Assembly: GCA_902728285.1 (NCBI GenBank)
Contig: CACVBU010000274.1
Span: 1,441,132 to 1,505,131, forward strand
Reading direction: 5' to 3'
From: Clytia hemisphaerica
Lineage: Eukaryota > Cnidaria > Hydrozoa > Leptothecata > Clytiidae
DNA: 64,000 nucleotides
In this document: positions 916 through 44,650 of the stretch, piece after piece
How positions within the stretch are numbered: position 1 is the stretch's first letter
How the letters are laid out: each line of letters opens with the position of its first letter
Made by a program: the position numbers and the translations under genes
The notes under the pieces: generated by a model
The model's database searches: none
What the model was told of the DNA's origin: nothing
What the model saw: the letters and a program-made list of their open reading frames with translations, nothing else

Positions 916-3900
916 ATGGCTTGGCGCTCACATGGTAAAGACAACGCACATCTCATCCAGCAACTTCAAAGTAAACATTTATATTTGCAATTTGTTCAAT
1001 TTTTGTATATTTTGATTGGAATATTGAAATTTACTGTAAAGAAGTTAACATTGATATTAGGTTTACGTTCGCCCTTTAATGACCACAGTTCTATAAATTG
1101 AATTTGAAAATAAAGAAAATTTCTAATATATTTCAAAAAATTAAAAATTTATTTTCCCTTAGAAAATGACATTCTAACATCCAACAGAGTAGCAAGTGCC
1201 ATGGCAAAAGTGGACCGACAAAACTATTGTTATGAGAATGCTTATATGGATTCTCCACAACCCATTGGTAAGTAGAAGTTTCTGCCCTAGTTGTACTCTT
1301 ATTCTACAATGAGGAAATCCTTATACCCTGGTTTATTTGGTTCATTCTTGCAAATTTCAATTAGGACCCAACCTCTGGCCAGAAAAATTATAAAGAATTG
1401 AAGAGAGTTACAGAATAAATTGTTGCAAAGGGCATTTGCTTTAACCATATTGAATGATTTTATTTTTTATTATTCAATTTAGGATACTCCGTCACTATCA
1501 GTGCACCTCATATGGTATGGACTTCAGTTGCCTACTTTTCACTACTTTCTATTTCTCATGATAATAGTTTTTGTCTTCTTATTGAATAAATAAGTTGTAC
1601 CTAATTGCTTTCGAAAAGAAATTACTCCAAGGCTTAGAAATCAAGAATTAAGGAAAATTGGTATTTTATCATAATCACAAAAACGAACTTAGGTCCCATT
1701 AGAGATAAGGTAGAGAACGACAAGTTAGATACTACTATTGTTTATAGAACGACATAATTTGATAAAAGATCGATAAAGGTTTTTCCCTTTTTAAAATGGG
1801 ATTGAGATGAACTCAACTGTTTTTCTTTCTCATTCTCTAGCATGTCCACGCATTGCAGCATCTTGAAGGACATTTACAGGAAGGAATGAGCGCACTCGAT
1901 GTTGGCTCTGGTAGTGGTTACCTTGCTGCTTGCATGGCCTACATGGTGAGTGCGGTGCATTTTCAATTACATTGTTTCATAATACTGTCATTATTCTGAA
2001 ACTCTACTCTTTGCTTTCAAAATAAAAGAATGTGTAAATTTCTGTCACGAAAAGAAATTGCCTCAAAAATTCAGATATTTTATCCTACAATTCTACGATT
2101 TTCCTTCAAAAATACATATATTCCACCTTACAATAGTGGTGGCAAGACAGATTCTGTCTGAAGAATTTTCCTTTATAAATACATTCGAATATATGGAATA
2201 CATTCGAATTTATGGAATATACATTAAATACATCAAAATATGTATATTCTTATTTATTGATGATATTTTATTCAACAAAAGATTGCTTGGAGGAAAGCAA
2301 AAGCGTGATGGAATGATAATTGGTAGTAATGAAAAAAAATTTCACTGCTTCCAATTATCGTATTCCATCTTACAAAATGTTGGTGAAAAATCCAGAGAAA
2401 TTTTTATACAATAATAATGTTCATTCTGTTCGTTCTGTGCAGTTTTGTGCAGTGAAATTTTCCTTAAAGAATACATGGATTTCTTCGAGGAAGTTTTCGT
2501 TCAAAAATTTGATTTTTCTTCCGAGATTCTGTTCTTAATTATCCTTAAAATCAATCCATGGTAAAGTTTTTCTCAATATAATCCGCAGCGGAAACAAAAT
2601 TGCTGTAACTTTTGATCAATTAGATAACGGTCATAGAATCAGAAGGTGGGGTATTATCAAAAGGAAAACACTATGAAATTGGAAATACAAAGATGAAAAA
2701 AAAAAAAAATCAACTTCTTTTAAACTTGTCCTTAACGTCTTTCTGAAATGTATGATTCGTTTATAACGAAAATTCCTTCAAAGATGCATGGTATTTTCCT
2801 TCAAAAATACATTGATTTCTCCCATGGAAGTTCCAAATAGGCCAAATAAAAACAATCCATCGAGAAACCTGGCAATCGAGCGGAATCTGATATATGGACA
2901 AACCAGCCCTGACTGTATGAAATAATTGATTTTGATGCAGAAGTTTTCCTTAGAAACGCATTGATTCTTCCTGAGAGAATTATCCTTGAAAATACATTGA
3001 TCGTGTTTGGTAAATTTTCTTCATATCTTATAAAAATTTCTCCAAGGAGGTATCTCTTTTTAAATGCATCGATTCTACACAACGAGCTTCTCGTCAAAAA
3101 TACATGGATTTTGACATGATTTTTGTCCAAAGAAGCTTTTCTAAAACACATTGATTCTTTATGAAAAACTTTTCCTTGAAAATACACTGATTATGTTTGG
3201 CAAATTGTCTCTCCAAAATACGGACCTTCTCCACAGTAATTGTTTTTCAAATTGTATGAGAAAAAATTGAAATTTTTCTCCTAAAATCAATTTTAGCCAA
3301 CTAAATTTTCCTTCAAATATTTACAGTAGCATTTTACTTCTGTACAAGAACAAAATTTTCTCTCAGGTATAATGCACAGGTTTTGTCTTTTCCTTGATTG
3401 TAGGTGAACAGAACACAAAATGCCCATCATTGTGGTGTGAATGATTTGCCAGACAACCACTCTCTGTGGGAAATTCAATGTACTTTGCAAACTTTTCTAT
3501 GAATAGTTTCACTATTGAATCTTATGTTCATTCTGTTGATTCAAGTATAATAATAATAATAATAATAATAATATGAGCTGTCAAGTGTGTTCGTCATTTA
3601 TTAAAATACCAAACTTTTTCGCAGAATTTCTGTCCAAAATACCTAAAGTCTGTTCCAAAAGAATTGGGAGTCTGTACATTTCGCTTTCAAAGGAGATAAA
3701 AACGTACTGAAACGTAGTACCTTGGAGGAAAGAAAACGTTTTTTGTGACACCAGTATGACGTTTTTCATCAAACTATTTCCAAGCAACCTTTACTTCACT
3801 CAGAGAACATTATTTAAACTTTCATTTGAACTTCAAAAGCGTCTAAACTGAGAGCCGTTGTACCAAATTTATAAGAGTTCAAATTATAATTACGACTTTT

Positions 3901-6900
3901 AATTAGAATAGAAAATCTTTTAAAAGCAACTATTAGCTCAATACGAAACTTGTTTCAGTCACAGCCGGTCATCTCAGCCAAGGTGTGTAACTATGTGCAT
4001 CATGACAGTTTCGTCATACTATATGAATTCTTTCCAAGCAATGCTTTGTTAGTTATTATCATTTCTCCAGGAAAAGGAAGAAAAATATAGTTTTTTGAAA
4101 GATATTGTAACTTATCATTGGAAATAATTTTTTCGAACTCTTTTTTTGGACCTACCCCGGTGGGGTAGAGGTCCTTTAAATTAACCGATGTCCGTCCGTT
4201 CGTTCGTTCGTCTGTTCGTTCGTCCGTCTGTTACCAGCTTTTCTCAGGATTGGCTCATTAGTTTTTTTTGATTTTTGGCACAATGATGCAAAATGGTAAT
4301 GCCCAAAATGTGACGGAGCCTGATTTTCGAAAAAAAAATATTTCCGGCCGAAAATGCCGGAAATATGCCGGAAAAACCGGTTTTTTGGCATTTTCTCGAG
4401 ATTTCATCATTAGTTTTTTCTGATTTTTTGCACAAAGATGCGTATTAGCAATGCCCAAAACTTGGCCGAGTCCGATTTTTGAGAAAAAATTTTTTCCGGT
4501 CGAAAATGCCGGAAATATGCCGGAAATCGCCATTTTTGCAGATTTTCATCGGACTTTTTCCTTATATTTCGTTGTTTTTTCACTCAAAAACATTATTAAT
4601 AGCAATGCCCACCATTAAGCATGGTTCAATCGTCAATAGAACTGAGTTTTGAAGCCGGAACTTTCTAAAAATCGCCGGTGCAGCCCATTTTCGCCGGAAA
4701 AACGGTATTTTCTGATTTTTCTCGAGCTGTACTTTATATTTTTTTATGAAATTTTACACACTGATGCAAAATGATAATACCTAAAATGTGACGGAGCCCG
4801 ATTTTGGAAAAAAAAAATTTTCCGGCCGAAAATGCCGGAAATATGCCGGAAAAACAGGTTTTTTGACATTTTCTCGAGATTTTGTTATTAGTTTTTTCTG
4901 ATTTTTTGCTTAAAGATGCCTAATAACAATGCCCAAAACATGGCCGAGTCCGGATTTTTGAGAAAAAAATTTTTTTGGGGCCGAATATGCCGGAAAAACT
5001 GTTTTTTTCGGCATTTTATCATTAGCTTTTGCTGATTTTTTGCTCAAAGATGCGTATTAACAATGCCCAAATCATTGCCGAGTCCGACTTTTGAGAAAAA
5101 GTTTTTTCCGGCCGAAAATGCCGGAAATATGCCGGAAATCGCCGTTTTTGCAGATTTGAATTGGGCTTTTTCCATACATTTCTTTGTTTTTTCACTTAAA
5201 AAAATTATTGATAATTCAATGCCATCATCAAGCATGATTCAATTGTCAATAAAACTTTTACAATTTTACAACCGGAACTTTCTATTTCTTTTTTCCCTAA
5301 ACCCCTCCCCCCCATCAACAATCAATGATGACATTTAATGCATTTTCGCTAAGCGCTATATTTTCGCTAAGCGCTATATTTTCTTAATGATTGTTTTTCT
5401 CCTTATTGCTATCTAAGTTTCATCATCAGGTAGGTCCATTCAGCATGTTGCTTGTTATAGGTTGGAAAAACAGGATGTGTTGTTGGCATTGATCACATTC
5501 CAGAATTAGTGGAAAGATCTGTTCAAAATGTAAACAAAGGCAATTCTGATATTCTCACAAGCAAGAATTTGGAACTCGTAGGTAAGTAAGCCTCTTTGAT
5601 CACTTTTTCTAGCTTCAATTGAATTTCGATTTCCGATCACAAAGTGTCGGATTTTGCTGAAATTTTGCAGTTAGCACGCATGCATCTTGGGTGAATATTT
5701 GGGAATAATCTTTTAATTTTTCAAAAGTTTTTATTTTGTGCCTAAAGATTCTCATTTTTGCTACATTTTTGTGTTTTTGATATTCGAAAAATGAAGCCAA
5801 ATGTTCAACTCTCGAGTGTATCTCTGTATAAATAGATTACCACAAGAGATTGACTAAGAAGAAAAAATAAAAGAACATGTGTAGACGCTGTGCGTCTATG
5901 CTGTGTGTCTATTACTAACTACTTAATGTGTTTTATCAACAGTATTACATTACCATTGACAATGAGGTTCAACCGAGTCGTGGTTATTGCTAATTGAAAA
6001 CTTTTCCCAATATCCCGCTAGACGTCATGAAACACTGACGGCTATGCAATATTTGGAGGTCTCTTAGGAGACTATATTACACTAATTGAAAGATGCTTGG
6101 ATAAAGGCACTTAGGGCCTGGACGAATTTCTGTTTTGGTGTAGACATTTGGGATCAATTGTATTGTGGTTCAAGTGTTTACCGTATAGTGGCAACCTATA
6201 AAAATGTTCGTTGTAAGGGTCAGCCACCTTTGTTTATCAGTCTAAAGCTCGTATTAGCAATTTTTCAAATTTTGGAAAAGATTGCTACACAACAAAGTCT
6301 ATTTGTCCCATTTTTATCATTAAAAATATCGTTTTTCCTGAAAGAATATTTGAGATGTGAGTTTTCGAGATTCTATTCTAATGTACATTATGACTTGACA
6401 GATTTTCTGAGATTGACACTTCTGATTTTCCAAAACTGTTCTAATAGGTGCCAATTAAGTTGGGAAAATGTTCAGAAATTGTAAATATCACCACAATTAA
6501 ATTTCTAGCGTTTTAATGTAGTCAAGAATGAAACCCCCTGGAAAAATCAGCTTTGCGCAGTGGCATTACCATTGACAATGAGGTTCAACCGAGTCGTGGT
6601 TATTGCTAATTGAAAACTTTTCCCAATATCCCGCTAGACGTCATGAAACACTGACGGCTATGCAATATTTGGAGGTCTCTTAGGAGACTATATTACACTA
6701 ATTGAAAGATGCTTGGATAAAGGCACTTAGGGCCTGGACGAATTTCTGTTTTGGTGTAGACATTTGGGATCAATTGTATTGTGGTTCAAGTGTTTACCGT
6801 ATAGTGGCAACCTATAAAAATGTTCGTTGTAAGGGTCAGCCACCTTTGTTTATCAGTCTAAAGCTCGTATTAGCAATTTTTCAAATTTTGGAAAAGATTG

Positions 6901-9900
6901 CTACACAACAAAGTCTATTTGTCCCATTTTTATCATTAAAAAATATCGTTTTTCCTGAAAAAATATTTGAGATGAGAGTTTTCGAGATTCTATTCGAATG
7001 TACATTATGACTTGACAGATTTTCTGAGATTGACACTTCTGATTTTCCAAAACTGTTCTAATAGGTGCCAATTAAGTTGGGAAAATGTTCAGAAATTGTA
7101 AATATCACCACAATTAAATTTCTAGCGTTTTAATGTAGTCAAGAATGAAACCCCCTGGAATAATCAGCTTTGCGCAGTGGCATTACCATTGACAATGAGG
7201 TTCAACCGAGTCGTGGTTATTGCTAATTGAAAACTTTTCCCAATATCCCGCTAGACGTCATGAAACACTGACGGCTATGCAATATTTTGGAGGTCTCTTA
7301 GGAGACTATATTACACTAATTGAAAGATGCTTGGATAAAGGCACTTAGGGCCTGGACGAATTTCTGTTTTTGGTGTAGACATTTGGGATCAATTGTATTG
7401 TGGTTCAAGTGTTTACCGTATAGTGGCAACCTATAAAAATGTTCGTTGTAAGGGTCAGCCACCTTTGTTTATCAGTCTAAAGCTCGTATTAGCAATTTTT
7501 CAAATTTTGGAAAAGATTGCTACACAACAAAGTCTATTTGTCCCATTTTTATCATTAAAAATATCGTTTTTCCTGAAAAAATATTTGAGATGAGAGTTTT
7601 CGAGATTCTATTCGAATGTACATTATGACTTGACAGATTTTCTGAGATTGACACTTCTGATTTTCCAAAACTGTTCTAATAGGTGCCAATTAAGTTGGGA
7701 AAATGTTCAGAAATTGTAAATATCACCACAATTAAATTTCTAGCGTTTTAATGTAGTCAAGAATGAAACCCCCTGGAATAATCAGCTTTGCGCAGTGGCA
7801 TTACCATTGACAATGAGGTTCAACCGAGTCGTGGTTATTGCTAATTGAAAACTTTTCCCAATATCCCGCTAGACGTCATGAAACACTGACGGCTATGCAA
7901 TATTTGGAGGTCTCTTAGGAGACTATATTACACTAATTGAAAGATGCTTGGATAAAGGCACTTAGGGCCTGGACGAATTTCTGTTTTGGTGTAGACATTT
8001 GGGATCAATTGTATTGTGGTTCAAGTGTTTACCGTATAGTGGCAACCTATAAAAATGTTCGTTGTAAGGGTCAGCCACCTTTGTTTATCAGTCTAAAGCT
8101 CGTATTAGCAATTTTTCAAATTTTGGAAAAGATTGCTACACAACAAAGTCTATTTGTCCCATTTTTATCATTAAAAATATCGTTTTTTTTTTTTCCTGAA
8201 AAAATATTTGAGATGAGAGTTTTCGAGATTCTATTCGAATGTACATTATGACTTGACAGATTTTCTGAGATTGACACTTCTGATTTTCCAAAACTGTTCT
8301 AATAGGTGCCAATTAAGTTGGGAAAATGTTCAGAAATTGTAAATATCACCACAATTAAATTTCTAGCGTTTTAATGTAGTCAAGAATGAAACCCCCTGGA
8401 ATAATCAGCTTTGCGCAGTGGCATTACCATTGACAATGAGGTTCAACCGAGTCGTGGTTATTGCTAATTGAAAACTTTTCCCAATATCCCGCTAGACGTC
8501 ATGAAACACTGACGGCTATGCAATATTTGGAGGTCTCTTAGGAGACTATATTACACTAATTGAAAGATGCTTGGATAAAGGCACTTAGGGCCTGGACGAA
8601 TTTCTGTTTTGGTGTAGACATTTGGGATCAATTGTATTGTGGTTCAAGTGTTTACCGTATAGTGGCAACCTATAAAAATGTTCGTTGTAAGGGTCAGCCA
8701 CCTTTGTTTATCAGTCTAAAGCTCGTATTAGCAATTTTTCAAATTTTGGAAAAGATTGCTACACAACAAAGTCTATTTGTCCCATTTTTATCATTAAAAA
8801 TATCGTTTTTCCTGAAAAAATATTTGAGATGAGAGTTTTCGAGATTCTATTCGAATGTACATTATGACTTGACAGATTTTCTGAGATTGACACTTCTGAT
8901 TTTCCAAAACTGTTCTAATAGGTGCCAATTAAGTTGGGAAAATGTTCAGAAATTGTAAATATCACCACAATTAAATTTCTAGCGTTTTAATGTAGTCAAG
9001 AATGAAACCCCCTGGAATAATCAGCTTTGCGCAGTGGCATTACCATTGACAATGAGGTTCAACCGAGTCGTGGTTATTGCTAATTGAAAACTTTTCCCAA
9101 TATCCCGCTAGACGTCATGAAACACTGACGGCTATGCAATATTTGGAGGTCTCTTAGGAGACTATATTACACTAATTGAAAGATGCTTGGATAAAGGCAC
9201 TTAGGGCCTGGACGAATTTCTGTTTTTGGTGTAGACATTTGGGATCAATTGTATTGTGGTTCAAGTGTTTACCGTATAGTGGCAACCTATAAAAATGTTC
9301 GTTGTAAGGGTCAGCCACCTTTGTTTATCAGTCTAAAGCTCGTATTAGCAATTTTTTCAAATTTTGGAAAAGATTGCTACACAACAAAGTCTATTTGTCC
9401 CATTTTTATTATCATTAAAAATATCGTTTTTCCTGAAAAAATATTTGAGATGAGAGTTTTCGAGATTCTATTCGAATGTACATTATGACTTGACAGATTT
9501 TCTGAGATTGACACTTCTGATTTTCCAAAACTGTTCTAATAGGTGCCAATTAAGTTGGGAAAATGTTCAGAAATTGTAAATATCACCACAATTAAATTTC
9601 TAGCGTTTTAATGTAGTCAAGAATGAAACCCCCTGGAATAATCAGCTTTGCGCAGTGGCATTACCATTGACAATGAGGTTCAACCGAGTCGTGGTTATTG
9701 CTAATTGAAAACTTTTCCCAATATCCCGCTAGACGTCATGAAACACTGACGGCTATGCAATATTTGGAGGTCTCTTAGGAGACTATATTACACTAATTGA
9801 AAGATGCTTGGATAAAGGCACTTAGGGCCTGGACGAATTTCTGTTTTGGTGTAGACATTTGGGATCAATTGTATTGTGGTTCAAGTGTTTACCGTATAGT

Positions 9901-12900
9901 GGCAACCTATAAAAATGTTCGTTGTAAGGGTCAGCCACCTTTTGTTTATCAGTCTAAAGCTCGTATTAGCAATTTTTCAAATTTTGGAAAAGATTGCTAC
10001 ACAACAAAGTCTATTTGTCCCATTTTTTATCATTAAAAATATCGTTTTTTTTCCTGAAAAAATATTTGAGATGAGAGTTTTCGAGATTCTATTCGAATGT
10101 ACATTATGACTTGACAGATTTTCTGAGATTGACACTTCTGATTTTCCAAAACTGTTCTAATAGGTGCCAATTAAGTTGGGAAAATGTTCAGAAATTGTAA
10201 ATATCACCACAATTAAATTTCTAGCGTTTTAATGTAGTCAAGAATGAAACCCCCTGGAATAATCAGCTTTGCGCAGTGGCATTACCATTGACAATGAGGT
10301 TCAACCGAGTCGTGGTTATTGCTAATTGAAAACTTTTCCCAATATCCCGCTAGACGTCATGAAACACTGACGGCTATGCAATATTTGGAGGTCTCTTAGG
10401 AGACTATATTACACTAATTGAAAGATGCTTGGATAAAGGCACTTAGGGCCTGGACGAATTTCTGTTTTGGTGTAGACATTTGGGATCAATTGTATTGTGG
10501 TTCAAGTGTTTACCGTATAGTGGCAACCTATAAAAATGTTCGTTGTAAGGGTCAGCCACCTTTGTTTATCAGTCTAAAGCTCGTATTAGCAATTTTTCAA
10601 ATTTTGGAAAAGATTGCTACACAACAAAGTCTATTTGTCCCATTTTTATCATTAAAAATATCGTTTTTCCTGAAAAAATATTTGAGATGAGAGTTTTCGA
10701 GATTCTATTCGAATGTACATTATGACTTGACAGATTTTCTGAGATTGACACTTCTGATTTTCCAAAACTGTTCTAATAGGTGCCAATTAAGTTGGGAAAA
10801 TGTTCAGAAATTGTAAATATCACCACAATTAAATTTCTAGCGTTTTAATGTAGTCAAGAATGAAACCCCCTGGAATAATCAGCTTTGCGCAGTGGCATTA
10901 CCATTGACAATGAGGTTCAACCGAGTCGTGGTTATTGCTAATTGAAAACTTTTCCCAATATCCCGCTAGACGTCATGAAACACTGACGGCTATGCAATAT
11001 TTGGAGGTCTCTTAGGAGACTATATTACACTAATTGAAAGATGCTTGGATAAAGGCACTTAGGGCCTGGACGAATTTCTGTTTTGGTGTAGACATTTGGG
11101 ATCAATTGTATTGTGGTTCAAGTGTTTACCGTATAGTGGCAACCTATAAAAATGTTCGTTGTAAGGGTCAGCCACCTTTGTTTATCAGTCTAAAGCTCGT
11201 ATTAGCAATTTTTCAAATTTTGGAAAAGATTGCTACACAACAAAGTCTATTTGTCCCATTTTTATCATTAAAAATATCGTTTTTCCTGAAAAAATATTTG
11301 AGATGAGAGTTTTCGAGATTCTATTCGAATGTACATTATGACTTGACAGATTTTCTGAGATTGACACTTCTGATTTTCCAAAACTGTTCTAATAGGTGCC
11401 AATTAAGTTGGGAAAATGTTCAGAAATTGTAAATATCACCACAATTAAATTTCTAGCGTTTTAATGTAGTCAAGAATGAAACCCCCTGGAATAATCAGCT
11501 TTGCGCAGTGGCATTACCATTGACAATGAGGTTCAACCGAGTCGTGGTTATTGCTAATTGAAAACTTTTCCCAATATCCCGCTAGACGTCATGAAACACT
11601 GACGGCTATGCAATATTTGGAGGTCTCTTAGGAGACTATATTACACTAATTGAAAGATGCTTGGATAAAGGCACTTAGGGCCTGGACGAATTTCTGTTTT
11701 GGTGTAGACATTTGGGATCAATTGTATTGTGGTTCAAGTGTTTACCGTATAGTGGCAACCTATAAAAATGTTCGTTGTAAGGGTCAGCCACCTTTGTTTA
11801 TCAGTCTAAAGCTCGTATTAGCAATTTTTCAAATTTTGGAAAAGATTGCTACACAACAAAGTCTATTTGTCCCATTTTTATCATTAAAAATATCGTTTTT
11901 CCTGAAAAAATATTTGAGATGAGAGTTTTTCGAGATTCTATTCGAATGTACATTATGACTTGACAGATTTTCTGAGATTGACACTTCTGATTTTCCAAAA
12001 CTGTTCTAATAGGTGCCAATTAAGTTGGGAAAATGTTCAGAAATTGTAAATATCACCACAATTAAATTTCTAGCGTTTTTAATGTAGTCAAGAATGAAAC
12101 CCCCTGGAATAATCAGCTTTGCGCAGTGGCATTACCATTGACAATGAGGTTCAACCGAGTCGTGGTTATTGCTAATTGAAAACTTTTCCCAATATCCCGC
12201 TAGACGTCATGAAACACTGACGGCTATGCAATATTTGGAGGTCTCTTAGGAGACTATATTACACTAATTGAAAGATGCTTGGATAAAGGCACTTAGGGCC
12301 TGGACGAATTTCTGTTTTGGTGTAGACATTTGGGATCAATTGTATTGTGGTTCAAGTGTTTACCGTATAGTGGCAACCTATAAAAATGTTCGTTGTAAGG
12401 GTCAGCCACCTTTGTTTATCAGTCTAAAGCTCGTATTAGCAATTTTTCAAATTTTGGAAAAGATTGCTACACAACAAAGTCTATTTGTCCCATTTTTATC
12501 ATTAAAAATATCGTTTTTCCTGAAAAAATATTTGAGATGAGAGTTTTCGAGATTCTATTCGAATGTACATTATGACTTGACAGATTTTCTGAGATTGACA
12601 CTTCTGATTTTCCAAAACTGTTCTAATAGGTGCCAATTAAGTTGGGAAAATGTTCAGAAATTGTAAATATCACCACAATTAAATTTCTAGCGTTTTAATG
12701 TAGTCAAGAATGAAACCCCCTGGAATAATCAGCTTTGCGCAGTGGCATTACCATTGACAATGAGGTTCAACCGAGTCGTGGTTATTGCTAATTGAAAACT
12801 TTTCCCAATATCCCGCTAGACGTCATGAAACACTGACGGCTATGCAATATTTGGAGGTCTCTTAGGAGACTATATTACACTAATTGAAAGATGCTTGGAT

Positions 12901-15900
12901 AAAGGCACTTAGGGCCTGGACGAATTTCTGTTTTGGTGTAGACATTTGGGATCAATTGTATTGTGGTTCAAGTGTTTACCGTATAGTGGCAACCTATAAA
13001 AATGTTCGTTGTAAGGGTCAGCCACCTTTGTTTATCAGTCTAAAGCTCGTATTAGCAATTTTTCAAATTTTGGAAAAGATTGCTACACAAACAAAGTCTA
13101 TTTGTCCCATTTTTATCATTAAAAATATCGTTTTTCCTGAAAAAATATTTGAGATGAGAGTTTTCGAGATTCTATTCGAATGTACATTATGACTTGACAG
13201 ATTTTCTGAGATTGACACTTCTGATTTTCCAAAACTGTTCTAATAGGTGCCAATTAAGTTGGGAAAATGTTCAGAAATTGTAAATATCACCACAATTAAA
13301 TTTCTAGCGTTTTAATGTAGTCAAGAATGAAACCCCCTGGAATAATCAGCTTTGCGCAGTGGCATTACCATTGACAATGAGGTTCAACCGAGTCGTGGTT
13401 ATTGCTAATTGAAAACTTTTCCCAATATCCCGCTAGACGTCATGAAACACTGACGGCTATGCAATATTTGGAGGTCTCTTAGGAGACTATATTACACTAA
13501 TTGAAAGATGCTTGGATAAAGGCACTTAGGGCCTGGACGAATTTCTGTTTTGGTGTAGACATTTGGGATCAATTGTATTGTGGTTCAAGTGTTTACCGTA
13601 TAGTGGCAACCTATAAAAATGTTCGTTGTAAGGGTCAGCCACCTTTGTTTATCAGTCTAAAGCTCGTATTAGCAATTTTTCAAATTTTGGAAAAGATTGC
13701 TACACAACAAAGTCTATTTGTCCCATTTTTATCATTAAAAATATCGTTTTTTTTCCTGAAAAAATATTTTGAGATGAGAGTTTTCGAGATTCTATTCGAA
13801 TGTACATTATGACTTGACAGATTTTCTGAGATTGACACTTCTGATTTTCCAAAACTGTTCTAATAGGTGCCAATTAAGTTGGGAAAATGTTCAGAAATTG
13901 TAAATATCACCACAATTAAATTTCTAGCGTTTTAATGTAGTCAAGAATGAAACCCCCTGGAATAATCAGCTTTGCGCAGTGGCATTACCATTGACAATGA
14001 GGTTCAACCGAGTCGTGGTTATTGCTAATTGAAAACTTTTCCCAATATCCCGCTAGACGTCATGAAACACTGACGGCTATGCAATATTTGGAGGTCTCTT
14101 AGGAGACTATATTACACTAATTGAAAGATGCTTGGATAAAGGCACTTAGGGCCTGGACGAATTTCTGTTTTGGTGTAGACATTTGGGATCAATTGTATTG
14201 TGGTTCAAGTGTTTACCGTATAGTGGCAACCTATAAAAATGTTCGTTGTAAGGGTCAGCCACCTTTGTTTATCAGTCTAAAGCTCGTATTAGCAATTTTT
14301 CAAATTTTGGAAAAGATTGCTACACAACAAAGTCTATTTGTCCCATTTTTATCATTAAAAATATCGTTTTTCCTGAAAAAAAATATTTGAGATGAGAGTT
14401 TTCGAGATTCTATTCGAATGTACATTATGACTTGACAGATTTTCTGAGATTGACACTTCTGATTTTCCAAAACTGTTCTAATAGGTGCCAATTAAGTTGG
14501 GAAAATGTTCAGAAATTGTAAATATCACCACAATTAAATTTCTAGCGTTTTAATGTAGTCAAGAATGAAACCCCCTGGAATAATCAGCTTTGCGCAGTGG
14601 CATTACCATTGACAATGAGGTTCAACCGAGTCGTGGTTATTGCTAATTGAAAACTTTTCCCAATATCCCGCTAGACGTCATGAAACACTGACGGCTATGC
14701 AATATTTGGAGGTCTCTTAGGAGACTATATTACACTAATTGAAAGATGCTTGGATAAAGGCACTTAGGGCCTGGACGAATTTCTGTTTTGGTGTAGACAT
14801 TTGGGATCAATTGTATTGTGGTTCAAGTGTTTACCGTATAGTGGCAACCTATAAAAATGTTCGTTGTAAGGGTCAGCCACCTTTGTTTATCAGTCTAAAG
14901 CTCGTATTAGCAATTTTTCAAATTTTGGAAAAGATTGCTACACAACAAAGTCTATTTGTCCCATTTTTATCATTAAAAATATCGTTTTTCCTGAAAAAAT
15001 ATTTGAGATGAGAGTTTTCGAGATTCTATTCGAATGTACATTATGACTTGACAGATTTTCTGAGATTGACACTTCTGATTTTCCAAAACTGTTCTAATAG
15101 GTGCCAATTAAGTTGGGAAAATGTTCAGAAATTGTAAATATCACCACAATTAAATTTCTAGCGTTTTAATGTAGTCAAGAATGAAACCCCCTGGAATAAT
15201 CAGCTTTGCGCAGTGGCATTACCATTGACAATGAGGTTCAACCGAGTCGTGGTTATTGCTAATTGAAAACTTTTCCCAATATCCCGCTAGACGTCATGAA
15301 ACACTGACGGCTATGCAATATTTGGAGGTCTCTTAGGAGACTATATTACACTAATTGAAAGATGCTTGGATAAAGGCACTTAGGGCCTGGACGAATTTCT
15401 GTTTTGGTGTAGACATTTGGGATCAATTGTATTGTGGTTCAAGTGTTTACCGTATAGTGGCAACCTATAAAAATGTTCGTTGTAAGGGTCAGCCACCTTT
15501 GTTTATCAGTCTAAAGCTCGTATTAGCAATTTTTCAAATTTTGGAAAAGATTGCTACACAACAAAGTCTATTGGTGTAGACATTTGGGATCAATTGCATT
15601 GTGGTTCAAGTGTTTACCGGATAGTGGCAACCTATTAAAATGTTCGTTGTAAGCCACAAGCTATCCATTACAGTATCGTTACCTTAATGGAATGTAAAAT
15701 TTAGTTCCCGTAAGATAAGCCGTGCTTTTTTAACCAAAATTTGATAATTTTGATAACTTTTTAACTTTTGGCGCGATAGTAGCATCATCGACTTTTATGG
15801 GTTCAGAATATACCAGCACGTTTTCGTTTTTAAAAATCCTTCATATACATATCACGATATTTTTATTGACAACCCTTACGTTATATAGTGTAAAATCCCC

Positions 15901-17742
15901 CATTTTTTAAAATGATTTTTTTCAAACGGTGTCATCTCATTTACTTTCAGTCGGTGATGGACGGTTGGGTTATTTGCCACGGGCACCTTTCGATGCAATT
16001 CACGTTGGAGCTGCTGCTCCCCATCTTCCTCAAGCTGTAAGTGTTCTACAATAAAAACAGATAGAGTCTATTAGAGTAATACTAGACGGTTCCCGTCGTC
16101 GCAAACGCCGGTTTAGCATGTGCCTTAAAAGCCCTTAGGATGGTATTGTTGATGCTCTCTTACTTTATTTTTAAAGGGATTTCGAATTAGTTTTTGGAGT
16201 ACATCGATTAGTTGGAAGATTTCTTGTAAATACCTCTTTCTACTTCAAATTGAATGTGAGAATATGACTTGAAATCTTCACCATAAAATTAGCTTAGTAA
16301 ACAATAAACTGTCAACTATGAGAGTTTCTTCAGGAAGGTTGAGGGCTTTTTCAATTTAATCGAAAACGGAACTTATTGAGTAGTAAAATGTCAAATTGAG
16401 AGCGTCAAATGTATCATCAGTGTATAAGAATGAAAAAGTTTTAAAAAATGTTGCTGTATCTACGAATTTGAGGTCGACATGACGCGCCTAAAAAGACCAA
16501 AAAATAAATACTTTGATTTCGAAACAATCATGAATATATCCAAACTTACAGGCAACAACTTATATCCACTTCTCACACGGAAAACCTCCGTTTTTTACCT
16601 GTGCATTGACTATTTGAAAACCCAATTTTTACTAACTTTTTCGTAGAAAGTGCCACGCCTTCTAAAACTCCAAAATTTATGTCACATGATGTTTAGAATA
16701 ATTGAAGTCAGAATTATTTTCGTTAAAAAGTCACTGTAGGGGCTTCTTCGATTCAAACGCCAAATCCTTTTGAGGACGGGGGTTTTATCGGAAGGCAGTG
16801 TTAATTTTCGCACTCAATCATAGATGAAAACTAAACTTTAAACATAAATTAAAATCACGACGTATCATCAACTGCTTTTTCGAAATACAATAAGATATTT
16901 TTTGTCACAACACTGCAGGAAATCCAACTTTCATACTCGAATCCTTCGAATCAACCCCCTGGCAAATTTTTGAAATAACAGCTCAGCTACCATCTTGCGT
17001 TAGACACGCTTTTCGTAAACTCATTTAATATATAAAGATAACTTAAGTTCCGGCGAGATATTTCTTTTCTATTCTTTATGTTGTTTTGTAAGGCAATCTA
17101 ATCCTATTTGAAGCCACCTCTTTTGCAGATTTTAACAAAGTAAAAGCTATTTGGTTAATTTTTGAAACCTTAGTAGCACATTCCAATCGAATCTGGTAAG
17201 GGTAGCTCCCAGTATCGTTTCAAAATACAAACATATTGAAATTAGAAGCTTTCTCTCATTAGCTCATTGATCAGTTGAAACCTGGAGGTCGGCTAGTCAT
17301 TCCTGTTGGTCCTGAAGGAGGAAATCAGAAACTTCTGCAAGTGGATAAATCCCCTGATGGAAAAAGTATCGAGAAGAAAACACTAATGGGTGTTATATAT
17401 GTTCCTTTGACCGACAAAGATCGCCAGATGAAGAGTAGGTTATGTTCTTTGATTATGATGCTAATATTTGAAGTGAACATTTTCTAAAGAATTGTCCCAA
17501 AGAATCACTAGGAAATACGGTGTGTCCGATAAAAAAACGGACCAGATATTATACAAAGCAAAATCTTCAAAATTTACCATTAGATAAGCCAGGCCCAAGG
17601 TATTCAAAATTAGTTTTTAAAAATAAATGAGTGATTATGTCATAAAAACTGATATAAATAATGAGCATTTTCTTTTATTTAAATCCTTTTCCCTTTTTTT
17701 TCCGGACACAAAAAAAAATCTTTTAACTTTTCAGGTCGATGA
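916..17742 (+). CDS. PCMT1: Protein-L-isoaspartate(D-aspartate) O-methyltransferase (PCMT1-like)
   Basis: A cytosolic repair enzyme that methylates L-isoaspartyl residues of damaged proteins using S-adenosylmethionine. Coding exons, each with GT/AG borders and consistent phase: 916-970, 1163-1267, 1483-1514, 1841-1945, 5461-5581, 15951-16036, 17263-17434, 17735-17742. They sum to 684 nt, or 227 aa plus stop, the usual length of animal PCMT1. Motifs in order: MDSPQPIG before residue 55; the active-site SAPHM (60-64); AdoMet motif I LDVGSGSG (83-90); GIDH (108-111); VGDGR (140-144); [10 protein letters not shown] (154-163); [13 protein letters not shown] (173-185); GVIYVPLTD. The last coding exon is only 8 nt and supplies the terminal Ser-Arg and the stop. 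The ATG at 916 opens MAWRS, as in other PCMT1 proteins. Intron 4 holds a foldback element and intron 5 the U4 snRNA array. Confidence 0.95.
2080..3240. repeat. Degenerate minisatellite in PCMT1 intron 4
   Basis: Many diverged, loosely spaced units resemble 'TTTTCCTTGAAAATACATTG' followed by 'attcttc', roughly 35-60 bases apart (clear at 2790, 2945, 2985, 3170). Open frames across it on both strands are products of the repeat and lack codon structure. Confidence 0.6.
3548..3572. repeat. (TAA)n microsatellite
   Basis: About eight perfect TAA units within intron 4 of the PCMT1-like gene. Confidence 0.9.
4147..5438. mobile_element. Foldback/TIR element with internal CCGGAAATATGCCGG-type repeats
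   Basis: Ends are inverted: TGGACCTACC at 4147 and GGTAGGTCCA at 5429-5438. After the left end comes 'gtccgtccgttcgttcgttcg', then four or five diverged internal units of about 200 bases, each holding 'attttttgcacaaagatgc', 'aatgcccaaaa' and 'gccgaaaatgccggaaatatgccgg'. No transposase frame is present. Two further partial copies of the left end lie at 23531 and 24338. It sits inside PCMT1 intron 4, just before exon 5. Confidence 0.7.
5948..6073 (+). pseudogene. U4 snRNA copy 1, 5'-truncated
   Basis: Matches the other copies from 'cattaccattgac' to the 3' stem-loop, but the first 15 bases, AGCTTTGCGCAGTGG, are replaced by unrelated intron sequence. The upstream flank has no TCACC-type PSE. 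The lost bases form the part of U4 that pairs with U6 (stem II), so this copy should be non-functional. Confidence 0.85.
6488..6504 (+). promoter_or_regulatory. Candidate proximal sequence element (PSE) of U4 copy 2
   Basis: TCACCACAATTAAATTT starts 61 bases before the U4 5' end, the position and general shape of metazoan snRNA PSEs (SNAPc sites, roughly YCACC followed by A/T-rich bases). The same string lies at the same offset before each of the 15 full-length copies and is missing before the truncated copy. There is no TATA box at -30, consistent with Pol II transcription. The identification is by resemblance only. Confidence 0.55.
6549..6689 (+). ncRNA. RNU4: U4 spliceosomal snRNA, copy 2 (first full-length)
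   Basis: U4 base-pairs with U6 in the U4/U6.U5 tri-snRNP and is released on spliceosome activation. Sequence landmarks: AGCTTTGCGCAGTGGC at the 5' end (U6 stem II strand); the 5' stem-loop with the k-turn halves CAATGAGG and CCGAG that bind SNU13/15.5K; TTATTGCTAATTGAAAACTT (U6 stem I strand and linker); TTTTCCCAATATCCCGC; a central stem-loop; the Sm site AATATTTGG; and the terminal hairpin GTCTCTTAGGAGAC. The length of about 141 nt is close to the 145 nt of human U4. The exact 3' end is estimated from the hairpin. Confidence 0.95.
6700..6712 (+). promoter_or_regulatory. Candidate snRNA 3' box of U4 copy 2
   Basis: AATTGAAAGATGC begins about 11 bases after the U4 terminal hairpin, the distance expected for the Integrator-dependent 3' box (loosely GTTT, AAA, purine-rich). 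It recurs after every copy. The match is loose and inferred from position. Confidence 0.35.
7166..7307 (+). ncRNA. RNU4: U4 spliceosomal snRNA, copy 3
   Basis: As copy 2 except for one extra T in the Sm site (AATATTTTGG), making it 142 nt. It is the only full-length copy with a change inside the RNA. A longer U run in an Sm site may still bind Sm proteins. Confidence 0.93.
7784..7924 (+). ncRNA. RNU4: U4 spliceosomal snRNA, copy 4
   Basis: Sequence reads identical to copy 2 over 141 nt. Its downstream spacer has the longest poly-T tract in the array (about 8185). Confidence 0.95.
8407..8547 (+). ncRNA. RNU4: U4 spliceosomal snRNA, copy 5
   Basis: Identical to copy 2 over 141 nt; PSE-like string at -61. 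Confidence 0.95.
9023..9163 (+). ncRNA. RNU4: U4 spliceosomal snRNA, copy 6
   Basis: Identical to copy 2 over 141 nt. Its spacer has a 3-base insertion near 9410 and a longer T run near 9353. Confidence 0.95.
9644..9784 (+). ncRNA. RNU4: U4 spliceosomal snRNA, copy 7
   Basis: Identical to copy 2 over 141 nt; its spacer has three single-base or short T-run expansions. Confidence 0.95.
10265..10405 (+). ncRNA. RNU4: U4 spliceosomal snRNA, copy 8
   Basis: Identical to copy 2 over 141 nt, in a unit of the modal 616-bp length. Confidence 0.95.
10881..11021 (+). ncRNA. RNU4: U4 spliceosomal snRNA, copy 9
   Basis: Identical to copy 2 over 141 nt, in a 616-bp unit. Confidence 0.95.
11497..11637 (+). 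ncRNA. RNU4: U4 spliceosomal snRNA, copy 10
   Basis: Identical to copy 2 over 141 nt. Single-T expansions occur downstream at about 11928 and 12077. Confidence 0.95.
12115..12255 (+). ncRNA. RNU4: U4 spliceosomal snRNA, copy 11
   Basis: Identical to copy 2 over 141 nt. One extra T lies between its PSE-like string and the start, so that string sits at -62 here. Confidence 0.95.
12731..12871 (+). ncRNA. RNU4: U4 spliceosomal snRNA, copy 12
   Basis: Identical to copy 2 over 141 nt. Its downstream spacer has an extra A near 13090. Confidence 0.95.
13348..13488 (+). ncRNA. RNU4: U4 spliceosomal snRNA, copy 13
   Basis: Identical to copy 2 over 141 nt; T-run expansions near 13750 and 13768 in its spacer. 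Confidence 0.95.
13968..14108 (+). ncRNA. RNU4: U4 spliceosomal snRNA, copy 14
   Basis: Identical to copy 2 over 141 nt; A-run expansion near 14376 in its spacer. Confidence 0.95.
14586..14726 (+). ncRNA. RNU4: U4 spliceosomal snRNA, copy 15
   Basis: Identical to copy 2 over 141 nt, in a 616-bp unit. Confidence 0.95.
15202..15342 (+). ncRNA. RNU4: U4 spliceosomal snRNA, copy 16 (last)
   Basis: Identical to copy 2 over 141 nt with an intact PSE-like string at -61. The unit is cut off about 230 bases downstream of the gene, but the U4 gene and its 3' flank are complete. Confidence 0.95.
15573..15655 (+). repeat. Rearranged array end: second copy of a spacer segment
   Basis: The last spacer stops after 'caacaaagtctatt' and jumps back to a diverged copy of its own segment starting 'ggtgtagacatttggg', with several substitutions (for example 'caattgcattg', 'accggatag'). 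Unique intron sequence follows. Confidence 0.8.
16037..17262. other. PCMT1 intron 6, no further feature
   Basis: AT-rich intron sequence between the exons ending at 16036 and starting at 17263. I see no repeat family or RNA gene in it. Confidence 0.6.
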
Positions 17743-38170: not shown

Positions 38171-38808
38171 CTAGCGAAGAGGTGTACATTGCACGCTTGC
38201 ACTTTTTTATAAGAAGCATTTTACATGAACAATAATGAGGCTCAGAATGTCTAAAAAGTAACAGCAGCTAAAAACAATGCTTAGATTGAAATGACTAATT
38301 TTTAAGGCACATGTTAAAAAACAGGATAAAAAAAGAATTTGAAGTTCATAGTTTAAAAAGATTAGAACAGACTAGTCTCCCCGGAACTTACAAGTCCTGA
38401 TTAAAAATGCGTGTAATTTAGAAGCCTGTACTGAAATCCTGTTTCATGGTCTTTGCTGGCTGCTTGTCCAGTCAGTACAAATCTTAATTACCCATCAATG
38501 TAGTTTCTCAATCTACTAATGACTGTTTAGGTCGTTTGGGAGTGATTTCAAGCTAAATAATATAGTTGTCCTTAGAGATTAATGGCATTAACGTCGTTTT
38601 GATGTGACGCTGACCTAACCTGACCCGCTCAAGGTCAAATGCACATAAATTAGTGGTTTGCATTAAAATAATGTCTTTTTAAGGGAAGCGTTTTATGCTT
38701 AGTACTAACAACTTTAAGACCGTTCATGTTCAAAATTGAATTCTGTACAATTTTTTTCATCCTATACTTTCAGAGAATATGTAAATAAAAAATAAACAAA
38801 ATATAATC

Positions 38809-41432
38809 ATGGATGTTGATGAGAAAACGCCCTTGGGTGAAAAAGACGCCAAACCTCAGACCGCCCAAACGCCACAGACCGCCCTTCAGAACCGCCCACA
38901 AGGACCAATTAACAAGCAAGATGCTAACTTCTTATGTGTCGTATGTAGTGACCGCGCCTCTGGCTACCATTATGGTGTTCCAGCCTGCGAAGGCTGTAAG
39001 GCATTTTTCAAACGTAGTTTACAGTCTAAAGATTTGAATTATAAATGCCCGGCCAAAGGGAATTGTGTGATTGATAAGATGAGTCGTAAATGTTGTCAAG
39101 CTTGTCGATTAAAGAAATGCCAAGATGTTGGAATGTCCAGAGAATGTAAGCTTGTTTTCCTTCTTTTCTTCTAAAGTAAAATCTCTTTATGGCGTGCACC
39201 GCAAAACTGATATACGATTTTTTGGAATTTTTTTTCGACCGTGAAAATAAGTTTTCACTAAATTAGTTGCCTCCCCGTTTTCTCAAAGCAAAGGTAACGA
39301 AACCTTTTTATAAAAGACTTACAGAGATGATTGAAGATTATCATTATCTCCATCATTTCTGAATTTTATTGATTATCTCCCTAATATTCATTGTTCAACG
39401 ATTCAATCATTTTTCATTCAGTTCTTGGCAGTAAAACCAAGAAGGTGAAAGGAGAACGTGGCAAAGATTATAGCAAGCCTTCCAAACAAAAGAAAACAGA
39501 ACAGAGTGAGCAAACTGAGAACTTAGTGGAAAGTACAATAAGTGCGAAAGAAGTCGAGCTGGAAAACATGGTTGATAAATTAAATGTTCTCCATTCTGAA
39601 TACTTCCTGAAAATCAAAGATAAATCAGAACCCGGACAGGATGTTAAAGAACAATTGTGTACAACTGTCGGACAACAATTAATACGGATAATTGACTGGG
39701 CTAAGAAACTGCCAGGGTATTGCCAACTAGCTATTAGTGATCAAGCCATTTTGTTACAAGCTGCTTGGGTAGATTTGCTTGTTTTGAACTGGCTTTATTT
39801 CTCAGTGATCTCCGAAGGTGGACTTAACATTTCGAGATCATGCCATATTACTAAGGATGACGCTAAAGAATTGGGATTCGATAATATTCATTCACACATT
39901 GTTTTATTGATTGATCGAGCCAAGAAATATCGAATAGACGAAGAAGAAGTTGCATGCTTGAAAGCCATCAGCTTAACGAATGCTGGTAAGTCAATTTCCA
40001 AGGCTGATTTTTCTGATTTTTTCAGTTTGATTTTGGGATTGCCGTTTAATTTCTTGCAGGGGTAAATCCACTAAGAATTATACTTTCCCTAATTTTATTT
40101 TTAAACAGCCAAAAATATTATCTGCTGTCATCCTCAGAATTTAGTGAAAATCGTTGTGTCAAAGTGACCTAATTAAGAAGGAGATGCTAAAGTCCAGAAC
40201 GATTGTAATTGAAGTAATCCTTGTGATAACACTTAAATTCTCTTGACACAGATTTCAATCCAAATATTAGCGTAATAACAGAGTGATTCTACCATATCGT
40301 GCTTAAAAAACGAATATATTTTCTCCACCTGGGTCAAACCAAGGTCATGAGTTCAATTTTTAATATTGTGAAAGTTGAAGGGCTGCCATCGAAAATATTA
40401 AAATAAATAAAAAACTTCCTGAGAGCCAGACGTTTTGTCCTGACTCAGCTCGATGTGAAAGTTTTGTGGTTCTTTCATCCTGTTTTTGATACACTCACTT
40501 ATCTTAAGTGCTTTTTTCGCGTTTTTCGAATTCTAGAGTCACGAAATGACATTGTTAACCGGAAAGTTTCACTTTTTTGTCAAAGGAATAATGATGCAAG
40601 TTCTCATCACAAATGCTTTGCAAGGAATATTGTCAAGCCTTGTTTTTGATAAGGAGTATGACGCAAAGAGAAACTAAAAAAAAGTCCATTCAAGAGCGCT
40701 AAAATCTATGATTCCTAAAGTTTTTTTTTGAGAGAGAGACAGTCCTTCCGATGAACGGAGCAGACCCTATCCAGGACAGCATTCACTATCCTAGAATAGG
40801 GAGATCACTGTGTTTACCTGACTCTGCCAACTCGTGCTTATGACACATCGAGCAGCTGGTGTATAGTTACTATACTCGAACGACTCGTGGTCAAACCTGA
40901 CAAGTATTAGCAACCACACCACAGGGTCAGGCAAAGTTTTTTGAAAATGGAGAAAAAGAAAAAGAACTCTTTTTGTTCATAGGCGCAACGATGGCCTTTG
41001 GACTGGAGATGGCTCGTTGAAATATTTTGAAACAGTTTCTGCTCCCTATCAACTGAACATTCTTAAGACTTGAAATCTAGTTAAAACCTTTCTTAATTCT
41101 TGTCTGAACCCTAAACAGAGAAAGAACATGGTCAGGAATGGAATCTAAAATTTCTTTTTTTTTCATCTTTGATTTTAGAGTCGAGCAGCCTTGAGGGTCC
41201 AGACAAAGTGAACGACCTTATCACGCAATTCAGCTCAGCCCTCCAATACTATACAGCGACCCGACATCGTGAAAATCCACAGAAGTTCGCTAATCTCGTC
41301 TTGATTTTACCGCAACTAAAATATTTAGTGAATCAATTGATCGAATTCTTGTACACTATGAAAATTAACTGCTCGGGTCCTGCGTTGACAGATCTGGTCA
41401 TTGAAATGTTGGAAGCAAAACAACGGTTATAG
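38809..41432 (+). CDS. NR3-type nuclear receptor (ER/ERR-like; NR3E candidate)
   Basis: A ligand-regulated or orphan transcription factor acting in the nucleus. Coding exons 38809-39145, 39422-39985 and 41179-41432 join in phase to 384 aa. A 5' UTR acceptor lies at 38773. DNA-binding domain residues 43-108: zinc Cys 43, 46, 60, 63 and 80, 86, 96, 99. The P-box [11 protein letters not shown] has the ER-like spelling (CEGCKA), not the RXR-type [17 protein letters not shown] and [17 protein letters not shown] follow the NR3 pattern. A basic hinge ([20 protein letters not shown]) precedes the LBD. LBD signature: [20 protein letters not shown]. The C-terminus [12 protein letters not shown] is an AF-2 helix very like that of ERR. 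A full-length receptor appears encoded. Medusozoan cnidarians are known to have an NR3E group; assignment to it is inference. Confidence 0.9.
39986..41178. other. Nuclear receptor intron 2, SINE-like insertion at about 40733-40932
   Basis: The intron divides the LBD. Inside, a 200-bp block of higher GC ('gaacggagcagaccctatcc' to 'ccacagggtcaggc') is bracketed by AAAGTTTTTT at 40717 and 40933, like target-site duplications of a SINE. It contains a GAGAGAGA stretch but no clear tRNA promoter. Confidence 0.35.
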
Positions 41433-44135: not shown

Positions 44136-44272
44136 AGAAGCATTTTATAAATCAGTATATGTGTTGATTGATATTTATATGTGATTATACAGTAGATCAA
44201 GAGAGGAAATTTGTACGAAAAGACAAGAGGGCAGGTTTATAAGACAACTTGCTGGTAAATTAAACAAGAAAG

Positions 44273-44650
44273 ATGACAAACTCTTTGGTTCTTTTGAAAT
44301 GTTTTGTTTACTTAATGACTCTCATGAATCTAACATCAGCTGAAGATGCATGGTCTTATAACCAGATCGAAACATTCTGTTACCGAGAACAATACCAACG
44401 AACTGTTACTCGCCCTGGTTGTAAACCAGAGTCGTTTCTCGTTTACGCATGTCTCGGAAATTGTCGGTCTTACGAGAAACCACTACAAGATATTCCATAT
44501 TTTCAAACTGTATGTTTATGTTGCAAAGCGTCGACGAGTGTCCGAAAAATATTCACTCTGTCCGAATGTAACGAAGGAGTTGACCGGACAGTAGAGATCG
44601 AATCGGCTTCGACTTGTAATTGTGAACACACTGATAAATGCAAATCATGA
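44273..44650 (+). CDS. Secreted cystine-knot hormone, bursicon/glycoprotein-hormone-like
   Basis: A 125-aa single-exon protein. Residues 1-22 form a hydrophobic signal peptide (LVLLKCFVYLMTLMNL). The mature part has eleven Cys (36, 50, 60, 64, 81, 83, 84, 99, 115, 117, 123). These give the cystine-knot ring motifs CLGNC (C-x-G-x-C, 60-64) and CNC (C-x-C, 115-117). RPGCKPESF followed by ACLGNCRSY and CLCC closely parallels bursicon alpha (PGC.P, FAC.G.C.SY, C.CC); glycoprotein hormone alpha-2 has a similar layout. Members signal through leucine-rich-repeat GPCRs, often as heterodimers; no partner gene is in the window. An overlapping plus-strand frame at 44346-44594 is a shadow. The exact family (bursicon, GPA2 or another CTCK) is undecided. 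Confidence 0.85.
   Translation: MTNSLVLLKCFVYLMTLMNLTSAEDAWSYNQIETFCYREQYQRTVTRPGCKPESFLVYACLGNCRSYEKPLQDIPYFQTVCLCCKASTSVRKIFTLSECNEGVDRTVEIESASTCNCEHTDKCKS

Follow-up and report, generated by a model that had tools for sequence, protein, structure and literature searches.

The window examined here (a 64-kb stretch of the Clytia hemisphaerica genome) contains a tandem array of U4 small nuclear RNA (snRNA) genes located inside an intron of a gene for protein-L-isoaspartate O-methyltransferase (PCMT). Scanning of the whole window with the Rfam U4 model RF00015 (cmscan, gathering cut-off of 46 bits) gave 16 matches, all on the plus strand, spanning positions 5941-15340 and scoring between 94 and 121 bits: 14 copies score 120.8 bits (E 5.7e-27), one scores 115.7 bits and one 94.1 bits. 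An earlier note on this DNA, which had described a U4 array, had named this comparison beforehand as its check, and the array is confirmed by it. The 14 top-scoring copies are letter-for-letter identical across 139 nucleotides (nt). An Sm site is present between the two 3' stems, as is characteristic of U4, and reads AATATTTGG in 15 of the 16 copies, including the truncated one. The copy at 7166 instead has AATATTTTGG, with one extra T that may be a sequencing error, because it is in a T run and 15 of the 16 insertion or deletion (indel) events among units 2-15 are in T or A runs. The first copy (at 5948) lacks approximately 15 nt of its 5' end. With respect to the claim that at least 15 genes are intact, 14 are so and the fifteenth carries the one-base insertion at 7166.

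The array extends from 5948 (within the first U4) to 15653, a length of approximately 9.7 kb; the limits given previously were correct to within a few bases, and the period of about 616 bp was borne out. Units 2-15 are each 616-623 bp in length; for a unit of 616 bp, the gap to the next gene is 477 bp. Tandem Repeats Finder, for which the longest period was 500, did not report the array.

The host gene encodes a PCMT protein of 227 amino acids (aa) in eight coding exons (PF01135, 5e-67), for which the nearest solved structure by sequence is 1i1n/1kr5. Together, the exons spell all 227 residues of the Clytia protein, and a 182-aa part of the host product encoded around the array matches that protein with 100% identity. 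The exon coordinates (Table 1) and the plus-strand orientation of every exon place the array in intron 5 on the strand of the host, as had been proposed along with the PCMT1-like identity of the gene. It lies wholly inside this GT-AG intron, of which it occupies 94%, and the host protein is complete. In a whole-genome search with the PCMT protein (17 candidates scored), all five matches were at the array locus and no second PCMT copy was found, although remote relatives would be missed by such a search; the host therefore does not seem to be a spare copy. We considered whether the host might be a duplicate or a pseudogene and rejected this, as the gene encodes all 227 aa and the genome matches all fall at this locus. 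Imperfect tandem repeats of 134-152 bp are present upstream of the array in PCMT intron 4 (4255-5127).

When cofolded with a U6 from the same genome (L012), the array U4 is predicted to form stem I, stem II and the 5' stem-loop, giving the Y shape expected of U4/U6. A genome-wide U4 search (41 candidates scored) produced at least 18 matches, including two further loci, C658:230687-230825 and C193:257132-257270. Each of these carries three differences from the array U4 over its 139 positions. Of the C658 changes, two fall on the same base pair of the 5' stem-loop (21-51) and compensate each other. At position 134, the array has an A (a UUAG loop in the 3' stem) where the dispersed loci have a C and the UUCG form, and positions 21/51, 74 and 83 tell the two dispersed loci apart. 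The similarity is largely confined to the gene: the 616-bp unit aligns to the dispersed loci only over 161 and 147 bases, and the flanks hardly align. A DNA search with one unit matched only these two other U4 loci (the gene plus a few bases), which gives no support to the idea that the unit belongs to a dispersed repeat. Because that search skips common words, even the array was missing from its matches, and it is therefore weak evidence that the unit is absent elsewhere.

Promoter and 3'-end motifs

The motif ACCACAA is found at -59 relative to U4 in 14 of the 15 full units and at -60 in the unit at 12115. The RNA polymerase II (Pol II)-type snRNA loci compared were the array, C658, C193, and one U1 and one U2 from a composite repeat described below (U5 was not included). 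ACCACAA is present at all five: at -59 in the array, at -58 in both dispersed U4 loci and U1, and at -57 in U2. The array thus shares a motif near -60 with other snRNA genes of this species, as expected for a proximal element. Outside the array, ACCACAA occurs five times in 108,480 bases (both strands of the window), which corresponds to a chance of approximately 2.3e-4 per promoter; shuffling of each promoter gives values of 3.5e-4 to 1.15e-3. We interpret ACCACAA as the core of the proximal sequence element (PSE) in Clytia, a name given by analogy.

Nine U6 loci were fetched, and the start motif was found in four of these (L014, L015, and the overlapping C782 loci L012 and L016). The C782 U6 repeat has ACCACAA at -64 and TATA at -25; a proximal element followed by a TATA box is the known layout of U6 promoters. 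This repeat is a short U6-5S tandem repeat: in the C782 stretch 149500-159400 (L043), a pair of U6 starts and, on the strand opposite to U6, a pair of 5S rRNA genes are each spaced by 588 bp.

A 3'-box-like motif, AATTGAA, starts 13 bases past the 3' end of U4, and TAATTGAAAGA follows all 15 full U4 copies. This places it within the approximately 19 bases of the RNA end in which a 3' box is expected. Motifs resembling AATTGAA are also found after the C193 U4 and after U2, with weaker versions after U1 and the C658 U4.

Every spacer also carries the proximal motif in inverted orientation (TTGTGGT on the plus strand) approximately 90 bases after U4, at 6163, 6779 and so on to 15432 and 15599, for a total of 17. 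The number of minus-strand ACCACAA motifs expected by chance is approximately 0.03 per unit. These could be copies of one chance site spread by amplification, or they could be an antisense element or second promoter.

Homogeneity of the units and other snRNA repeats

The units are near-identical and arranged head-to-tail, with diverged ends (the truncated unit 1 and an 83-bp remnant), as is typical of concerted evolution. Among units 2-15, no substitutions were observed in 91 pairwise comparisons covering 56,067 aligned positions. The 16 indel events are all insertions relative to the consensus, and the homopolymer differences between units look like long-read noise. Unit 1 differs from the core units by 4 substitutions in 596 bases. 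An identical middle with worn ends is the pattern that repeated unequal exchange leaves, and such exchange may have shaped this array.

A U1 array in the same assembly was used for comparison: across 12 of 31 U1 places, comparison of each 3.2-kb stretch with its neighbour (11 pairs) gave differences at 1-513 aligned sites, although the higher counts are perhaps inflated by gaps. As the assembly retains substitutions between U1 units, the identity of the U4 units can hardly be put down to the assembler alone.

Table 1. Coordinates of the U4 array and its host gene in the window
Feature	Position	Strand	Details
Unit 1	5948..6548	+	U4 lacking approximately the first 15 nt; remainder with 4 substitutions relative to core units
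Unit 2	6549..7165	+	Complete U4, 6549-6687
Unit 3	7166..7783	+	U4, 7166-7305, with one extra T in Sm site
Unit 4	7784..8406	+	Complete U4, 7784-7922
Unit 5	8407..9022	+	Complete U4, 8407-8545
Unit 6	9023..9643	+	Complete U4, 9023-9161
Unit 7	9644..10264	+	Complete U4, 9644-9782
Unit 8	10265..10880	+	Complete U4, 10265-10403
Unit 9	10881..11496	+	Complete U4, 10881-11019
Unit 10	11497..12114	+	Complete U4, 11497-11635
Unit 11	12115..12730	+	Complete U4, 12115-12253
Unit 12	12731..13347	+	Complete U4, 12731-12869
Unit 13	13348..13967	+	Complete U4, 13348-13486
Unit 14	13968..14585	+	Complete U4, 13968-14106
Unit 15	14586..15201	+	Complete U4, 14586-14724
Unit 16	15202..15570	+	Complete U4, 15202-15340; shortened spacer
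Diverged spacer remnant, right array edge	15571..15653	+	83 bp, 96% identity to unit positions 203-285
PSE-like ACCACAA, example unit	8348..8354	+	-59 of U4 at 8407
3'-box-like AATTGAA, example unit	8558..8564	+	13 bases past U4 ending at 8545
PCMT coding part	916..17742	+	Spliced translation equals C. hemisphaerica protein P0001; PF01135, 5e-67
PCMT exons	916-970, 1163-1267, 1483-1514, 1841-1945, 5461-5581, 15951-16036, 17263-17434, 17735-17742 (to stop)	+	GT-AG introns
PCMT intron 5	5582..15950	+	10,369 bp, GT-AG

Other snRNA genes in this genome are also arranged in tandem. Contig C212 (approximately 124.9-284.9 kb) has at least 25 tandem U1 copies, mostly in units of approximately 6 kb. 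The unit as read (L033, 153800-163700, and L034) contains U2 (+), U1 (+), 5S rRNA (-), H2A (-), H2B (+), H4 (-), H3 (+) and H1 (-), with the five histone genes named by eye from their open reading frames (ORFs). The array U4 lies outside this histone-snRNA-5S composite repeat. A second version of the composite repeat is present at 863-910 kb of C869 (L039 and L040), with six U1 copies, and reaches to about the contig end; low-scoring U2 variants were found in both stretches read.

Elsewhere in the window are a nuclear receptor gene with a C4 zinc finger and a ligand-binding domain (38785-40062, plus strand; PF00105, PF00104), a short ORF with a weak cystine-knot/DAN match (44264-44647, plus strand), and a Cas1p-type 10-TM acyltransferase domain (51098-51835, minus strand; PF07779).

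Interpretation of the array

We consider it likely that the array consists of homogenised, autonomous Pol II-type U4 genes in tandem, nested within intron 5 of the only PCMT gene detected in the genome and sharing its strand, and that the host is transcribed straight through it. Each unit would start its own short transcript approximately 58 bases downstream of ACCACAA, presumably by way of a SNAPc-type complex, and the U4 3' end would be formed by an Integrator-type activity at the AATTGAA box that closely follows the gene; the resulting RNA is predicted to pair with U6 in the standard way. The host polymerase would read the 9.7-kb array as ordinary intron sequence, to be spliced out and not cut at the 3' boxes, such that the cell probably reads and removes the whole row of U4 genes each time that PCMT protein is made. 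Unequal exchange would keep the inner units identical, with old or broken copies left at both ends. Cleavage at the 3' box is tied to a polymerase that initiated at an snRNA promoter (this is known mainly from vertebrates), so a polymerase arriving from the PCMT promoter could pass the boxes unprocessed. The DNA itself shows the U4 identity, the promoter and 3' motifs found at other snRNA genes as well, the complete host gene and the homogeneity of the units, and from these we infer transcription of the units, tolerance of read-through and the exchange mechanism; tolerance of read-through and limited host output, the alternatives raised in the earlier note, are each plausible.

Several observations weigh against this interpretation. 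The absence of substitutions over whole units, spacer included, shows recent homogenisation and not selection on U4. The U6-like starts of L014 and L015 have neither ACCACAA nor TATA. No distal element of the kind seen elsewhere was identified: ATTTGCAT, ATGCAAAT and GCATGCG do not occur within 400 bp upstream of the array U4, and U1 and both dispersed U4 loci do have such a distal motif, at -81 to -84 (the octamer ATTTGCAT is at -81 in U1). The array also lacks the palindromic TACGCATGCGTAA present at -87 in both C658 and C193. Without these upstream elements, the promoters of the array could be weak or, alternatively, dependent on copy number. However, U2 is likewise without the distal motifs, TACGCATGCGTAA and the octamer among them, so this distal element is not general here (other distal elements were not sought). 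Folded alone, the array U4 has a z-score of only -1.81, with 10 of 200 shuffled sequences equally stable. Lastly, transcription of human U1 and U2 ends approximately 600 bp past the 3' box (PMC3874203), as compared to the 477-bp gaps and 616-bp units of the array, suggesting that neighbouring units might interfere with one another.

A rather unlikely alternative is that the array is a silent repeat: U4 would have been duplicated into the intron and expanded like a satellite, and working U4 would come from C658 and C193. The absence from the array of the upstream element common to those dispersed loci fits this, as do the broken unit 1, the altered Sm site of unit 3, and a homogeneity that covers spacer and gene alike. 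Against it, 14 of the 16 U4 copies are full-length and identical, and the proximal element and 3' box are correctly placed even though the outer flanks cannot be aligned with the dispersed loci, which is hard to explain by copying of the RNA alone.

Beyond the autonomous array favoured above, we regard as speculative a scheme in which PCMT transcription, by opening the chromatin, is coupled to the activity of the 15 Pol II starts in its intron, with U4 demand tuning PCMT output or the reverse; the short units, whose 616 bp are close to the run of human snRNA polymerases past the 3' box, might then hand polymerases on from one to the next.

It is improbable that the array lies elsewhere in the genome, or was miscounted, and was joined into intron 5 during assembly. 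That all 16 indel events are insertions, 15 of them in T or A runs, is a signature of long-read noise, and the failure of the one-unit DNA search to list the array itself means that copies elsewhere could be missed. However, the window contains no N and belongs to a contig of 2.1 Mb, the left and right ends of the array differ in the diverged unit remnants that they carry, as at a natural array edge, and the U1 places compared above indicate that repeats have not simply been flattened. Finally, many small nucleolar RNAs (snoRNAs) are cut out of host introns, and the intronic, same-strand position of U4 would suit such excision of U4 from the host transcript, with host and U4 output tied to one transcript, but we discount this almost entirely, as a PSE-like element stands at the snRNA position in front of each full unit and U4 maturation requires a 5' cap.

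Relation to known systems

Nested snRNA genes are known: RNU4ATAC lies in an intron of human CLASP1, where it is a single-copy gene of the minor spliceosome on the opposite strand. An intronic small-RNA gene can also alter host output, as in the case of the MIR in the first intron of Polr3e, which can lower it by transcriptional interference; unlike the Clytia array, this MIR is a single antisense copy transcribed by Pol III (PMC5358760).

The best match with respect to array structure is found in another hydrozoan. In Hydractinia, near-identical snRNA copies recur at even intervals, separated by hundreds of bases or more, and the arrays comprise rRNAs, U1, U2, U5, U6, U3 and tRNAs (PMC11067881). 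In the portion of that report drawn on here, "four of the five" snRNAs are arrayed, U4 alone among the major snRNAs is missing from the list, and an intronic location is not mentioned; a search by the same authors found arrays in Nematostella, which has a U5 tandem array, and not in other cnidarian genomes. Acropora has tandem 5S-U1-U2 repeats, mapped by fluorescence in situ hybridization (FISH), with neither U4 nor a host gene mentioned in the text seen (PMC8167085). Consequently, the view in the earlier note that tandem snRNA arrays are better known for U1 and U2 must be qualified, as cnidarian U1, U2, U5 and U6 arrays have already been reported (PMC11067881). Given these and the U1/U2/5S/histone arrays of Clytia itself, a U4 array is only partly surprising.

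Outside the cnidarians, the human RNU2 array also consists of tandem, homogenised Pol II snRNA genes with a PSE and a 3' box, but its genes are U2, its 6.1-kb repeats are ten times longer, and the excerpts used mention no intronic location (PMC3874203, PMC13083260). The statement that U4 genes are few or dispersed in most animals studied is right for Drosophila, which has three (PMC4291461). So-called tandem arrays containing U4 have been reported from Arabidopsis, as mixed clusters. There, seven U1-U4 clusters and 11 U4 copies are described; these are U1-U4 pairs at several places on two chromosomes and not head-to-tail U4, and the material available from that paper mentions no intronic location (PMC545797). 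In Symbiodinium, a dinoflagellate, U4 is part of a mixed cluster of U1, U2, U4, U5 and U6, and no U4-only repeat is mentioned in the extract considered (PMC4083563).

In a limited search (titles and abstract openings of open-licence PMC papers), we found no published head-to-tail array of U4 only and no tandem snRNA array in an intron. Tandem snRNA arrays are thus not new, being found in both vertebrates and cnidarians; a U4-only array nested on the same strand in a single-copy gene is an unusual arrangement of known parts.

With this finding, a U4 array joins those of U1, U2, U5 and U6 reported from another hydrozoan. In C. hemisphaerica, 15 sets of Pol II-type snRNA start and 3'-end signals lie inside one Pol II gene that is seemingly single in the animal, making the locus a natural test of same-strand transcriptional interference and of whether polymerases from an mRNA promoter ignore snRNA 3' boxes. 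As Clytia is a laboratory animal, these questions are testable.

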